From Streptomyces sp. NBC_01351 (GTDB lineage Bacteria > Actinomycetota > Actinomycetes > Streptomycetales > Streptomycetaceae), in the NCBI RefSeq assembly GCF_036237315.1, contig NZ_CP108356.1, positions 1,922,001 through 1,986,000 on the forward strand: a stretch of 64,000 nucleotides of DNA, given 5' to 3'. The position numbers were made by a program, and so were the translations under genes. Positions within the stretch are counted from its first letter, which is position 1. Each line of letters opens with the position of its first letter. A model generated the notes under the pieces. That model was not told the DNA's origin, ran no database searches, and was given only the letters and a program-made list of their open reading frames with translations. This document shows, in pieces, positions 50,723 to 60,023 of the stretch.

Positions 50723-50920
50723 CTAACCGGAGCAGGCGGTGCGCTGCGCCTCCTGCCATTCGCACACCGGGCACAGCACCACGCCCGGGGTCGCGACCCC
50801 GTACTCGGTGGGCTTGCCGCACTGTAGGCAGTCCGCGTAGGGCGGCCCCTCGGCACGGGCCGGGGCCGCCGGGGCGGGGCAGTACGACTCGCTCGCGTCC
50901 TGCTCGTCCAACTGGTCCAT
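50723..50920 (-). CDS. Small zinc-ribbon protein
   Basis: A 65-residue protein with two CXXC pairs (CLQCGKPTEYG and CPVCEWQ). The N-terminal half is acidic and unstructured. It lies 3' of the ABC remnants on the same strand. The ATG at 50920 is the first in frame with an in-context start; the open frame upstream is non-coding. Function is unknown. Confidence 0.7.
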   Translation of the reverse strand: MDQLDEQDASESYCPAPAAPARAEGPPYADCLQCGKPTEYGVATPGVVLCPVCEWQEAQRTACSG

Positions 50921-52204: not shown

Positions 52205-52275
52205 GCCCTCGATCCTCACCCGGCCCAGACCCCCTCGGCATCATCCTGCAGAGGGAGCCTGGCATGCTTGGCAGG

Positions 52276-53040
52276 ATGAGCAGCCAGCACGCGAACGACA
52301 CTTCAGAGGTACCCGCGGCCGTCCCGGCGGTGGGGGCGGACAGCCCGTTCCGGCAGGAGCACGTCCTGCGCGACGAGGCCCCGCAGTTCGTCCTCCCGCT
52401 GGTGGTGCGGATCGAGAAGGCCGAGCCGCCCGCCCGGACGGACGCCCTGGAGACGGCGGCCCGCGCGGTGCTGGTCCTGCTGAGCGACGAGCGGGCGCGG
52501 GGCGAGGGCGAGTGGGCCGAGGCCGTGCGGGACTGGCAGGACGCCCGCATCCGCAAGGTGGTCCGGCGGGCGCGCGGGGCGGAGTGGCGCAAGGCCGAGA
52601 CCCTGCCGGGGGTCACGGTGCACGGTGACGCCTCGCAGGTGCGGGTCTTCCCTCCGGTACCGCTCGACGGCTGGCCGAAGGAACTGGCCAAGCTCCAGGT
52701 GTCGGGCACCGACCTCGACGACCCCGAGCCGGTCGGCCCGGACACCGAGCCCGGAGTGCCCGTGCTGTGGCTCAATCCCGACCTCGACATGTCGGCCGGC
52801 AAGGCGATGGCCCAGGCCGGGCACGGCGCGCAGCTGGCGTGGTGGGAGCTGACGCGGGCCGAGCGGGGGCTGTGGCAGGCGTCCGGTTTCCGCCTGGCGG
52901 TGCGGACGGCCCCGCGCGAGCGGTGGGCGGAGCTGAGCGGGAGCGGGCTGCCCGTGGTCCGGGACGCCGGTTTCACGGAGATCGCGCCCGGCTCCTGCAC
53001 GGTGGTCGCGGACCATCCGGCGCTCCGGTCCCGCCTGTAG
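52276..53040 (+). CDS. Peptidyl-tRNA hydrolase 2-like protein
   Basis: A 254-residue protein whose C-terminal ~120 residues match the PTH2 fold: LWLNPDLDMSAGKAMAQAGHG is the GKxxAQ(x)xH motif, and FTEIAPGSCTVVADHP is near the end. The N-terminal half (charged, helical, VLLSDERARGEGEWAEAVRDWQ) is an unknown extension. It may recycle peptidyl-tRNA or act on another bond. The ATG at 52276 is preferred over 52264. Confidence 0.8.
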   Translation: MSSQHANDTSEVPAAVPAVGADSPFRQEHVLRDEAPQFVLPLVVRIEKAEPPARTDALETAARAVLVLLSDERARGEGEWAEAVRDWQDARIRKVVRRARGAEWRKAETLPGVTVHGDASQVRVFPPVPLDGWPKELAKLQVSGTDLDDPEPVGPDTEPGVPVLWLNPDLDMSAGKAMAQAGHGAQLAWWELTRAERGLWQASGFRLAVRTAPRERWAELSGSGLPVVRDAGFTEIAPGSCTVVADHPALRSRL

Positions 53041-53172: not shown

Positions 53173-54564
53173 ATGAAGCCCATGGAACAGTTGGGGGTCG
53201 GCATCGGCTGGCGGCCGGAGATCGCGGACGCCGTCGAGCGACTGCCCGGCCTGGACTGGGTCGAGGTGGTGGCCGAGAACATCTGCGCGGACCACCTGCC
53301 CGATTCCCTGGTACGGCTGCGCGAGCGCGGCGTCCGCGTCGTGCCGCACGGGGTCTCGCTCGGCATCGGCGGCGCCGACCGGCCCGACCCGGCGAAGCTC
53401 GCGGCGCTCGCCGAGCGGGCGGTGGCGCTGGGGACGCCGCTGATCACCGAGCACATCGCCTTCGTACGGACCTCCTCGCCCGCGCTGGAGGCCGGCCACC
53501 TGCTGCCGGTGCCGCGCACGCGCGACGCGTTGGACGTGCTGTGCGAGAACGTACGGATCGCGCAGGACGCCCTGCCGGTGCCGCTGGCGCTGGAGAACAT
53601 CGCCGCGCTGATCTCCTGGCCGGACGAGGAGCTGACCGAGGGGCAGTTCCTGACGGAGCTGGTCGAGCGGACCGGCGTCCGGCTGCTGATCGACGTGGCC
53701 AACCTGCACACCAACCGCGTCAACCGGGGCGAGGACCCGGCCGCCGTGCTCGACGCGATCCCGCTGGAGGCGCTGGCGTACGTGCACGTGGCGGGCGGCG
53801 TGGAGAAGGGCGGCGTGTGGCACGACACCCACGCGCACCCGGTACCGCCCGTGGTGCTCGACCTGCTGGCCGGGCTCCGCGACCGGGTGGACCCGCCGGG
53901 GGTGCTCCTGGAACGGGACGACGACTTCCCGCCGGAGCCGGAACTCGCCGCCGAACTGACCGCGATCCGCGCGGTGCTGGTGGCTCCGCCGGGGCCGGGG
54001 GCGCGCCGGGGCGTCTCCTCGGGCGCCGAACGTGTCGGGGGGTCGGAGGGCCGGGCGGAGGGTGCGTTCGGCGCCCTGCGGGGACGCCCCGGCACACCCC
54101 CGTCCCCGGCGGAACCGGGCGTCGCGGACCCCACCGGGCCGCGCCCCGTCTCCGAGGCCGCCCGGACCCGGGTGGGGCTCGGGCAGGCCGCGCTGCTGTC
54201 GGCGCTGGTGGCCGGGACGCCCGTGCCCGAGGGGTTCGACCTGCCGCGGATCCGGGTGCAGGCCCGGGCCCTGGCCGCCAAGCGGGCCGGGGTGGTGGCC
54301 AAGGTGGCGCCCGAACTGCCGGGCATCCTCGGCGGCTCCGACCCGTACCGCCAGGCCTTCCTCTCGTACGCCAAGGGCCGGCCGATGACCGGCGGCTACC
54401 GCCGCGACGCGCTCGACTTCGCCGAGCACCTGCTGATCCGGGACCTGCCGGCCGACCCGGCCGCCCGCCGCCGGCTCACCGCCTGGTGGCGGGAGCGGGC
54501 CGGGGTCAGGCCGCCCCGCCGGATCGTGCGCTGGGCCCGGACGCTCGTGGGGAGGGCGGCATGA
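53173..54564 (+). CDS. DUF692/MNIO-type multinuclear iron oxidase with C-terminal extension
   Basis: A 463-residue protein. Residues 1-275 are the TIM-barrel MNIO domain: [43 protein letters not shown] and HDTHAHPVP supply the expected His, Asp and Glu iron ligands. Residues about 277-307 are coded by a dispersed palindromic repeat (54003-54093) that keeps the frame. Residues 310-463 are a helical domain possibly binding the partner. MNIOs oxidise cysteines in peptide substrates. The next gene overlaps its stop (ATGA) and encodes a Cys-rich-tailed membrane protein, its probable substrate. Confidence 0.87.
54003..54093. repeat. Long palindromic repeat, copy 2, inside the MNIO gene
   Basis: The left arm CCGGGGCGTCTCCTCGGGCG and the right arm ending CCCTGCGGGGACGCCCCGG form an inverted repeat, matching copy 1 at 4133-4222 in reverse. 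It is read through in frame ([12 protein letters not shown]... and [11 protein letters not shown]) in a linker between two domains. Confidence 0.72.
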
Positions 54565-55592
54565 GCTTCCTCGGCTTCCTCGCACTCGCGGTCTGGACCG
54601 CCGTCGTCGTCTCCTCCGTCCTGCTGCTGCGCGGCCTGCGCCGCTCCCGGCCGCCGTCCGCGGGGGCGGCCGCCGGGGTGCACGACCTGTCGGAGGCGGC
54701 GTTCCTGGCGGGCGGGCCCGCCAACGTCGTTGACGCCGCACTCGCCACGATGCTCACGGACCAGCGCCTCGTCGGCGGCGGCCCCGGCATCATCCAGGTG
54801 TGGCCGGGGGCCCGGGGGAGCGACCCCGCCGAGCGGGCCGTCCTCCAGGCGCACGCGGCGGCGCCCTCGGGGTGGCTGTACCAGGTGCGGTACGCCGCCA
54901 TGCGCGACCCGGCCGTCCAGGAGATCGGCGACTCCCTCTCCGCCCGCGGGCTGCTCTCCCCTCCCGGATCCGGCGCGACCTGGCGGCGCTGGGGGGTGAC
55001 CCAGGCCGTGGTGTGCGCGGTCCTCCTCCCGCTGTCGCTGCCGCTGACCTTCCTGGGGCTGGCCCTCGATCCCGACGCCCCGGCGCCGTTCATCGCGCTG
55101 GTGCTGCCCGTGGTGCTGGCCGGACTGGTCGTGGGCGTGGTCTGCGCGGCCCGGGCCAAGAGCCGGCTCACCCCGGCGGGGACGCGGGCGCTGTTCGCGA
55201 TGCGTCGCGCGTACATGCAGGACCAGAGCCCGTACGTGCGGACTGCCCTGTACGGGCTGCGCGGGCTGCGGGACCCCTACCTGCGGCAGCAGCTGATCCC
55301 GGCCGCCCGCGGCACCCGGCTGGCCGCGGCCCAGTCGCGGACCCGGCCGTACAGCCCGGACGGTTCCTCCTGGTCCTCCGCCGAGGCCGTCCCGATCGTC
55401 TGGTGCGCGGGGAGCGACGGCGGCGGGGGCCGAGGCGGATCGAGCTGTGGATCGGGCTGCGGATCGGGATCCGGCTGCGGCTCCTCGGGCAGCGGGTCCA
55501 GTTGTGGCGGTGGCAGCAGCGGCGGAGGCAGCAGTTCGAGTTGCAGTAGTTCGTCCGGATCCAGCTGCTCCAGCAGCTCAAGCAGCTCCTGA
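54561..55592 (+). CDS. TIGR04222-type membrane protein with Cys/Ser/Gly-rich tail
   Basis: A 343-residue protein. An N-terminal hydrophobic helix (residues 3-23) and two more at about 150-195 anchor it; the domain around [20 protein letters not shown] resembles the TIGR04222 type seen near DUF692 genes. The last ~45 residues are [20 protein letters not shown] and continue with further Ser/Gly and three more Cys, six in the tail in all. Such tails are plausible targets of cysteine-modifying MNIOs. It is coupled to the MNIO gene by ATGA. The tail might bind a metal such as copper after modification. Confidence 0.82.
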
Positions 55593-55765
55593 CGCCCCAT
55601 CACGGTCGGATCACAAAGCTGGTCGCGCTGGACCGGGAGCGCGGCGGAGCGGAGTCGCTGACCGCGGTGGCCGTACGGGGCGTGCGCGCGGTCGGCGATC
55701 CCGGGCTGCGGGCGGCCCTCGGGTACGGCAACCGGGGGCGGATCCCGAGGCAACGGGGCCAATGA
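55593..55765 (+). pseudogene. Possible remnant of a second TIGR04222-type protein
   Basis: A short open frame right after the Cys-tail gene reads RITKLVALDRERGGAESL then TAVAVRGVRAVGDPGLRAALG and ends at 55765. It has no start codon in frame. The part AVRGVRAVGDPGLRAAL resembles [18 protein letters not shown] in the protein just before, so it may be the tail of a decayed duplicate. Evidence is slight. Confidence 0.3.
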
Positions 55766-57810: not shown

Positions 57811-58524
57811 TCAGGCGAGCCCGGCCACCAGATCGGCGACGGACTTGCGGCGTCCGGTGTAGAAGGGCACCTCTTCACGGACGTGCATACGGGCCTCGGA
57901 GGCGCGCAGGTGACGCATCAGGTCGACGATGCGGTACAGCTCGTCGGCCTCGAAGGCCAGCAGCCACTCGTAGTCGCCGAGCGAGAAGGAGGCGACGGTG
58001 TTGGCGCGCACGTCCGGGTAGCCGCGGGCCATCAGGCCGTGGTCCTTGAGCATGCGGCGACGGTCCTCGTCGGGCAGCAGGTACCAGTCGTAGCTGCGTA
58101 CGAAGGGGTACACGCTGACGTAGTCGCGGGGGGTCTCGTCGGCCAGGAAGGCCGGGATGTGCGACTTGTTGAACTCGGCCGGACGGTGCAGGGCCATGTT
58201 CGACCACACCGGCTCCAGCGCGCGGCCCAGCTTGGTGCGGCGGAACAGGTTGTAGGCGGTCTGCAGCTCGTCGGAGGTCTCCGCGTGCCACCAGATCATG
58301 ATGTCCGCGTCGGCGCGCAGGCCGGAGACGTCATAGCTGCCGCGGACGGTGATGTCCTTGGCGGCCAGCTGGTCGAAGAGCTCCTGGACCTCGTCGGCGT
58401 AGCCGGTGCGGTCCTCCGGAAGAACGTCCTTCAGCTTGAAGACGGACCACAGGGTGTAGCGGATGACCTCGTTGAGGTCCTTCGCCTTCTTCCCCGCGTT
58501 GGGAATCTTCTCTGGTGCAGTCAT
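57811..58524 (-). CDS. hemQ: Coproheme decarboxylase HemQ
   Basis: Chlorite-dismutase-family protein of 237 residues that converts coproheme to haem b in the actinobacterial pathway. The heme-pocket segment is [22 protein letters not shown], followed by [12 protein letters not shown] with the functional Tyr and [13 protein letters not shown]. The ATG at 58524 starts the normal N-terminus. It lies 23 bp downstream of hemY on the same strand; the two form an operon. Confidence 0.95.
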
Positions 58525-58547: not shown

Positions 58548-60023
58548 TCAGTGGTCTGTGCCAGGGGGTACCGAACGCGTCCCGAGGGAGGCGAGCACCG
58601 CGTCCGCGGCCTTGCCGGCACTGGCGACGCAGGCCGGAATGCCCACTCCGTCGTAGAGCGCCCCGCACACCGCGAGGCCCGGGAGGGCCGCGACGGCACC
58701 GCGGATCCGCTCGACACGGGCCAGGTGGCCGACCGGGTACTGGGGCAGTCCGCCGTCCCAGCGGGTGACGGTGGAGGCGACCGGCCGGGCCGCGAGTCCG
58801 ACGGCCTCGCCCAGGTCGGCGAGGGAGACGTCGACGAGCTCCCCGTCCTCGCGTTTGAGATCGGCCTCGTCGGCGTACCGGCCGACCGAGGTCCGCAGCA
58901 GGAAGAGCTCCGGATCGGCCCCGGCCCAGGCCCACTTGTTGCTGGAGAAGGTGGAGGCCTTGATGGTCCGGCCGTCGACCGGCGGTACGAGGAACCCGCT
59001 GGCGCCGCCCCCGGTGACGGCGGCCGGCAGGTCGGAGCGGCGGAAGGCCATCGTGACGAGGGCCATGGAGGCGTATTCGACCCCGCGCAGCTCGGCCGCG
59101 GCGGCCGGCGCGAGGGTGTCGAGCAGCCGGGCGGCGGGCCCGGCCGGGGTGGCGACGATCACCCCGTCCGCCTCGATGACCTCGGTGGCCTCTCCGTCGG
59201 CCACGATCCGCCAGCCTCCCGCCGTACGCGTGACCTCGCGCACGGGGGTGCCGGTACGCAGGTCCGCCCCGGCGGCCCGGCAGGCCTCGGCCACCGCGAG
59301 CGGGAGCCGTCCGATGCCGCCGTCGATGCCGGCGAAGACCGGGCCGGCCTGCTGGGGCGCGGCTTCCGCCCGGCGCTGCAGTTCGCGGACGCCGTCGCCG
59401 AGCAGGCGGTGGGTGCGGGCGGCCTCGAAGAGCTGGGGCACGGCGGCACGCATGGAGATGCGGTAGGCGTTGCCGGCGTAGACCCCGCCGAGGAGGGGTT
59501 CGACGAGCCGGTCGACGACCTCGCGGCCGAGGCGGGCGGCGACGTACTCGCCGACGGCGACGTCCTCGCCGATCTCGGCGGCCGGCAGCTCGCGCTCGGC
59601 CTCGATCCGGGCCAGCCCCTCCGGGGAGAGCACGCCGGAGGCGGCGAGCGGTGCCAGGTCGCCGGGGACGCCCATGACGTGCCCGCGCGGCATCGGCCGC
59701 AGGGCGCCGCGGGTCCACAGGTGGGCGGTGGCGGTGGCGGGCGGCTGCAGGGCTTCGCCGAGGCCGACGGCGCGGGCGAGTTCCAGGGCTTCGGGGCGGC
59801 GGGCGAGCACGGATTCGGCGCCGAGGTCGACGCGGGCCCCGGCGAGCTCACCGGCGTACAGCTTGCCGCCGAGCCGCTCCCCGGCTTCCAGCAGCGTGAC
59901 GCGGGCGCCGTCGGCGAGCAGCCGGTGGGCTGCCGCGAGGCCCGAGATGCCGCCGCCGATGACGACGACGTGCCGGGTCCGGCCTGGGCGATCCGTACGC
60001 ATGTCCGCTTCGTGCATGGACAC
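58548..60023 (-). CDS. hemY: Coproporphyrinogen/protoporphyrinogen oxidase HemY
   Basis: FAD-dependent oxidase of 491 residues. The dinucleotide motif is [16 protein letters not shown] near residue 20, then [12 protein letters not shown]; the C-terminal region includes [16 protein letters not shown]. It oxidises coproporphyrinogen III (in the HemQ-type route) to coproporphyrin. The first ATG at 60023 is used; ATG at 60017 or 60002 would work. The gene precedes hemQ and, further along the strand, hemE lies upstream. Confidence 0.94.

Follow-up and report, generated by a model that had tools for sequence, protein, structure and literature searches.

The window, a stretch of 64,000 nucleotides from Streptomyces sp. 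NBC_01351, carries a gene for a DUF692-type oxidase (MNIO) and, directly behind it, a gene for a TIGR04222 membrane protein (T1), with a 4-nt ATGA at 54561-54564 on the forward strand common to the stop of the first and the ATG of the second (Table 1). The initial annotation had described both this overlap and the two families, and all of it was borne out: the enzyme matched PF05114 over residues 8-268 with 261 bits against a cut-off of 25, and the TIGR04222 profile spanned T1 residues 10-236 with 126.3 bits. A gene for a peptidyl-tRNA-hydrolase-like protein lies upstream of the MNIO gene, and a homologue was found at 34 of the 84 loci searched, a set that includes 60 MNIO loci extending no more than 2.5 kb upstream. 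Downstream, the end of the T1 gene overlaps what is left of another TIGR04222 gene without a tail (T2), at the place where the relatives L074 and L107 have a complete T2 gene. Also downstream are a TAP-like hydrolase and, encoded in the opposite direction, one member each of the chlorite-dismutase and amine-oxidase families. Elsewhere on the reverse strand (50726-50920) is a gene for a 65-aa protein with six Cys, including two CxxC pairs, which looks like a small zinc ribbon and has homologues in 9 of the 84 loci stretches.

The pairing of MNIO and TIGR04222 genes and the substrate hypothesis that goes with it have been predicted in print before (PMC12452194, Antoine et al. 2025). According to that report, TIGR04222 proteins make up 40% of more than 1,000 signal-peptide-less Cys proteins encoded before MNIO genes; Ser/Gly tails with Cys are described, C-proximal Cys are said to be missing in more than a quarter of cases, and subsets of the family are proposed as MNIO substrates. 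A TIGR04222 peptide has also been noted in a Pseudonocardia cluster (PMC5183585). The window pair shows the published pattern, a MNIO adjoining a TIGR04222 gene with C-terminal Cys, and is like the clusters of PMC12452194 in its families, its Ser/Gly/Cys tail and its gene order, listed there as 'Adjamnio-II (peptidyl-tRNA hydrolase) - MNIO - TIGR04222' (Table 2, cluster II); the gene upstream occupies the 'adjamnio-II' position, although the hydrolase is assigned to PF01195 in that report and to PF01981 (PTH2) here. What the present analysis adds is a covariation test, the spacing of the Cys residues, a fused domain at nearly every locus, an argument on topology and a clade of loci without the tail.

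Table 1. Genes and protein features at the MNIO-TIGR04222 locus (positions in the window)
Feature	Position	Strand	Remarks
Peptidyl-tRNA-hydrolase-like protein	52264..53040	+	C-terminal PTH2 domain (PF01981, E=6.6e-10, residues 167-255); upstream of MNIO
MNIO gene (DUF692) with fused C-terminal domain	53173..54564	+	463 aa
Catalytic TIM-barrel domain, MNIO residues 8-268	53194..53976	+	PF05114 match
All-helical domain fused to MNIO, residues 328-443	54154..54501	+	PF26136 (precomputed); helices in structure model; DUF2063-like
ATGA overlap, MNIO stop / TIGR04222 start	54561..54564	+	
TIGR04222 membrane protein (T1)	54561..55592	+	343 aa; TIGR04222 126.3 bits, cut-off 43
TM1, T1 residues 3-28	54567..54644	+	Model helix; predicted N-out, C-in; K/R: 0 before, 4 in next 15 residues
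Soluble domain, T1 residues 43-133	54687..54959	+	Helix-helix-strand-strand-helix-helix-helix (model); predicted cytosolic (positive-inside counts)
TM2-TM3 hairpin, T1 residues 139-169 and 177-200	54975..55160	+	Predicted from model and charge counts
C-terminal helices, T1 residues 205-260	55173..55340	+	Model; predicted cytosolic
Trp-Cys-Ala motif and disordered Ser/Gly/Cys tail, T1 residues 281-343	55401..55589	+	7 Cys; pLDDT mostly <50
T2 remnant (second, tailless TIGR04222 gene)	55553..55723	+	Profile positions 193-238 only; overlaps end of Cys-tailed gene
Chlorite-dismutase-family gene	57814-58524	-	Near the locus in 45/84 loci stretches, many Streptomyces
Amine-oxidase-family gene	58551-60023	-	Near the locus in 28/84 loci stretches, many Streptomyces

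The MNIO and its fused helical domain

The window MNIO has a TIM-barrel fold like that of MbnB and TglH, with fold-search rows spanning residues 5-276. Ten residues (E31, H59, H94, E141, D174, N177, H205, D218, H220 and E247) are invariant in all 85 aligned MNIO domains, and judging by MbnB and TglH we take the metal ligands of the iron site to be among them. MbnB/MbnC of methanobactin synthesis and TglH/TglI act on peptides and use separate partner chains, whereas the candidate substrate here is a protein and the enzyme a fused chain; the MbnB match of the window MNIO was weak (31.6 bits, cut-off 325). The bufferin system (BufA-BufB-BufC) is alike in combining a MNIO, a DUF2063-type partner and Cys targets, but the window MNIO scored 180.4 bits with the BufB equivalog, under its cut-off of 310, and bufferin precursors carry Sec signal peptides (PMC12452194), in contrast to a 343-aa three-helix membrane protein. 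A PF05114 match was found in 59 of 61 Streptomyces genomes, one of them a piece at a contig end, and a TIGR04222 match in 55 of 61.

An all-helical, DUF2063-like domain is present, fused or separate, at 82 of 85 MNIO loci; among the 59 Streptomyces loci it is joined to the MNIO in 52 and has its own gene in 6, while outside the genus it is a separate gene at most of the loci listed. As to a structural relation with the DUF2063 domain of NGO1945 (3dee) or with TglI (8hi7), the DUF2063 profile weakly matched 5 of 25 members (best 9.4e-5), the window member not being one of them, and a PDB profile search with the domain returned a single match at chance level; the fold-search rows covered the barrel part of the chain only. 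We read the fused domain as the putative partner domain of the MNIO. The PME-type 2 MNIO partners of PMC12452194 are likewise short helical DUF2063-like domains, with a separate gene in some relatives, in contrast to the prevailing fusion in Streptomyces. The same report describes many TIGR04222-MNIO clusters as appearing without a partner gene, whereas here the DUF2063-like domain is part of the enzyme; 12 of its 14 passages matching fusion-type and related terms were covered, and in these no MNIO-partner fusion is mentioned. Such a fusion would offer a one-chain enzyme for reconstitution. At one locus (L219, in genome G093) a TIGR04222 protein with a Cys/Gly stretch continues in frame into a segment similar to the partner domain of MNIOs, an arrangement that perhaps arose by deletion of a MNIO between the two.

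The Cys tail and its co-occurrence with the MNIO

The initial annotation had counted six Cys in the last 45 residues of T1. The Ser/Gly-spaced Cys tail is present as described, but the last 45 residues hold five Cys, the last 48 six and the last 63 seven. The Cys are spaced more evenly than chance would have it. For the 82 distinct Streptomyces tails with enough gaps, the coefficient of variation of the spacing was 0.300, compared with 0.747 in shuffled tails, and only 3 gaps between Cys were 2 or shorter where 115.2 were expected. An earlier count on 88 tails had the same outcome (89 were counted, and with 6 repeats removed 83 distinct tails remained). In those 88 tails the gap was 6-8 residues long in 363 of 547 cases, and most tail Cys had Ser before them and Gly or Ser after them. 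Trp-Cys was found in 76 of the 83 distinct tails with at least 4 Cys, and the WCA motif was invariant in all 32 aligned close relatives. Since a single base change separates Cys TGY codons from certain codons of Ser and Gly, and the window tail contains short tandem repeats (three rows of 1.9-3.3 copies), the Cys might be thought a by-product of GC-rich low-complexity DNA. However, its Ser codons come from both families (14 TCN and 16 AGY), which together with the shortness of the repeats means that slippage of a single DNA unit is no explanation for the tail; the even spacing and the Gly-rich ends without Cys in MNIO-free genomes also go against this explanation, which was already disfavoured and can practically be set aside.

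The suggestion that TIGR04222 tails covary with the presence of a MNIO was followed up in 82 TIGR04222 matches from 69 genomes of the class outside Streptomyces, a Cys tail being called where a stretch of 40 residues had three or more Cys and a Gly+Ser+Cys content of 60% or higher. Of 42 genomes with a MNIO, 39 had a Cys-tailed TIGR04222 protein, against 0 of the 27 without. For these counts TIGR04222 was scored in the 7 best candidates per genome, so that a Cys-tailed paralogue could escape, as can a MNIO at a contig end. An instance of the latter is G125, counted as a MNIO genome from a 38-bit MNIO piece at a contig end; G105 and G119 were counted although below the TIGR04222 family cut-off. 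Streptomyces, matches weaker than those listed and G145 stand outside this contrast, and both G145 (no MNIO match; two Cys after the domain but no Cys tail) and the Streptomyces genome G559 (no MNIO match; no Cys after the domain) are in line with the rule. A smaller first test under a stricter rule gave 15/16 versus 0/9, or 14/15 versus 1/10 with G125 taken as MNIO-free.

Three genomes depart from the rule. G421 has an adjacent MNIO and a tail with no Cys; G093 has a partial MNIO elsewhere and a Cys-rich stretch followed by the partner-domain-like piece; and the MNIO of G491 is probably from another subgroup, as it is not adjacent and scores 366.5 bits. A Gly-rich end closing with Asp or Glu was kept in 12 of 29 MNIO-free matches (counted by eye), and unlinked TIGR04222 proteins with Cys tails occur at L213 and L215, in genomes whose MNIO lies elsewhere. 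The genomes are not independent, and phylogenetically independent pairs were few: an earlier pairing gave 2 contrasts, and the 4 pairs on supported branches split into a mean of 1.7 in the same direction, 0 opposite and 2.3 without difference, which is not significant.

The association outside Streptomyces supports the earlier claim that the MNIO is coupled to the Cys-tailed protein, and the two genes very probably form a functionally coupled pair. The tail thiols might instead stay unmodified, binding zinc or copper or forming disulfides, with the MNIO a mere syntenic neighbour. Our literature search found no report of modification for the TIGR04222 family, and the window's genome encodes a protein (L003) with a 5-Cys tail and no adjoining MNIO, although the genome's MNIO could act on it in trans. 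With no Cys tail in any MNIO-free genome outside Streptomyces, and with the MNIO and T1 genes overlapping, we consider this explanation very improbable.

Membrane topology of T1 and a working model

The structure model of T1 (mean pLDDT 77.5) places three transmembrane helices around a soluble domain and ahead of the tail; a GPP34 (GOLPH3-like) fold is one candidate for the soluble part. Positive-inside counts came to 76:0 and 66:3, and to 37:0 and 33:1 in the set outside Streptomyces, the second count of each set favouring a C-terminus inside. PMC12452194 calls the TIGR04222 proteins signal-peptide-less, and with respect to a bufferin-type Sec signal T1 has no K/R before its first hydrophobic helix (residues 3-28 in the model); the mean over the proteins counted was 0.04 K/R before TM1, unlike a signal peptide. 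Some MNIO-adjacent Cys-tailed homologues do without the usual three helices: L226 has none, and L211 and L212 have one marginal stretch each, that of L211 (27-45) falling within the soluble domain. By hydropathy scan, the N-terminal hydrophobic segment is absent from L226, L003, L211 and L212.

The charge bias and the Cys-tailed homologues lacking the usual helices suggest that the tail of T1 is cytosolic, so the surface brush proposed in the initial annotation was not supported. PMC12452194, in contrast, predicts a periplasmic or extracytoplasmic tail. Under that topology the MNIO would act in the cytosol before insertion, and the modified tail would form a surface metal-binding brush. Two points speak for this arrangement: the published prediction of a periplasmic low-complexity region, and a fourth hydrophobic stretch that 7 of the 27 resolved Cys-tailed proteins from outside Streptomyces have and that could place their tail outside; against it stand the charge bias, the start of the protein and the four homologues without an N-terminal hydrophobic segment, and we regard it as rather unlikely. 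The charge analysis turns a published assumption into a testable question. Three further TIGR04222 paralogues are encoded in the window's genome with no MNIO adjoining; L003 has no transmembrane segment by scan and ends in a 5-Cys Gly tail, and L002 and L004 have one Cys at the end.

These features can be combined in a model, the most likely of those considered, in which the fused MNIO oxidises Cys of a cytosolic, membrane-anchored T1 tail. The substrate would be a protein, not a free peptide, and would be bound by the MNIO with the partner domain in the same chain. The Cys of the disordered tail would be oxidised starting at or after the conserved Trp-Cys, and the products would probably be a series of groups resembling thiooxazole or oxazolone/thioamide, spaced 6-8 residues apart. 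Three transmembrane helices would anchor T1 with its N-terminus outside, while the soluble domain and the tail stay cytosolic; as tail and enzyme would then both be in the cytosol, export would not be needed. The modified tail may serve as a membrane-tethered metal or redox buffer facing the cytosol. The fusion, the gene overlap, the intact catalytic residues, the even spacing, the association of tail and MNIO and the charge bias are observed features of the sequences, and to these the model adds a putative modification with a proposed chemistry, a partner function for the fused domain, a presumed metal or redox role and a predicted side of the membrane; taken as a whole, we consider it evenly balanced between right and wrong. 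If it is true, MNIO chemistry extends beyond peptides and exported precursors to resident membrane proteins inside the cell, with a reach in Streptomyces indicated by a MNIO match in nearly all of the 61 sampled genomes.

Streptomyces loci without the Cys tail

The initial annotation had held that homologues keeping the MNIO but losing the Cys tail would speak against the coupling. Such a separation was found in part: of the 57 Streptomyces MNIO loci not cut by a contig end, 23 lack the Cys-tailed protein, and almost all of these belong to a single clade, while outside the genus the tail is kept in all but three of the MNIO genomes. The 59 Streptomyces loci comprise 34 with a Cys-tailed protein, 20 with tailless TIGR04222 only and 5 with none, 2 of the 5 being cut by contig ends. 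Among the best 80 named loci, which partly overlap the other set, 57 had a Cys tail, 9 a tailless or cut protein only and 14 no such protein, in several of these because the locus runs into a contig end. On a MNIO tree with 63 genus rows, built without L120, L123 and the two loci that contig ends cut (L076 and L093), the no-tail state required 2 changes against a mean of 21 after shuffling, the rows concerned being one group of 28 (SH-aLRT 92, not starred) and L085.

The enzyme is constrained at these loci. Median dN/dS of the MNIO was 0.120 in no-tail and 0.187 in tailed species (27 of 29 and 23 of 34 rows used), indicating purifying selection, and the ten candidate ligands are kept in the no-tail MNIOs. 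Therefore, the tail is not the sole reason for the enzyme there, and since the enzyme outlasts the tail, the MNIO of this clade has another substrate or always had one. This raises the possibility that the main MNIO substrate is another protein generally, and that the Cys-tailed protein is modified only secondarily or has a scaffolding or accessory role. A MNIO nearly universal in the genus, a tail so often missing and an enzyme kept under constraint fit this explanation, as does the presence of other recurrent neighbours (the PTH2-like protein, a DUF4142-cluster protein and the tailless T2). However, the tail Cys go with MNIO presence outside Streptomyces, and no neighbour is constant at the no-tail loci, the DUF4142-cluster gene being absent at L066, L079, L088 and L089 and TIGR04222 at L106; we judge the explanation unlikely. 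Returning to the cytosolic-tail model, a fuller version of it, with a never-exported substrate bearing periodic oxidised Cys on a cytosolic tail and a Streptomyces clade that re-targeted the enzyme after losing T1, is less likely than not, and we put it forward tentatively. The no-tail clade would serve as a natural control in a search for the actual MNIO substrates.

Members of the protein cluster that includes the DUF4142 protein of L073 (PF13628; L073:3924-4769) recur beside MNIO and TIGR04222 genes at 29 of 84 loci, 18 of the 29 without a Cys-tailed protein. Most of the 25 tailless T2 proteins at no-tail loci, for example those of L070, L078 and L109, carry a C-terminal HR[DE]-like extension, which is mostly missing from the 16 T2 proteins of the other loci.

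As to function, none of the known metal-regulator boxes looked for stood out. We read the chlorite-dismutase-family and amine-oxidase-family neighbours as HemQ and HemY, and the pair are probably heme synthesis genes. SCO6045 is presumably the S. coelicolor orthologue of the window MNIO, which fits the SCO6041/SCO6042 neighbourhood. In that species SCO6041 is listed as a protoporphyrinogen oxidase and SCO6042 as a chlorite dismutase (PMC5069765). SCO6045, given as a 'hypothetical protein', was 3.01-fold up after H2O2 in the wild type, whereas its regulation was disturbed in the HbpS-SenS-SenR mutant; the table that lists it (PMC4991794) also contains many genes of cysteine synthesis. We treat its H2O2 response only as a lead to the function of the MNIO.
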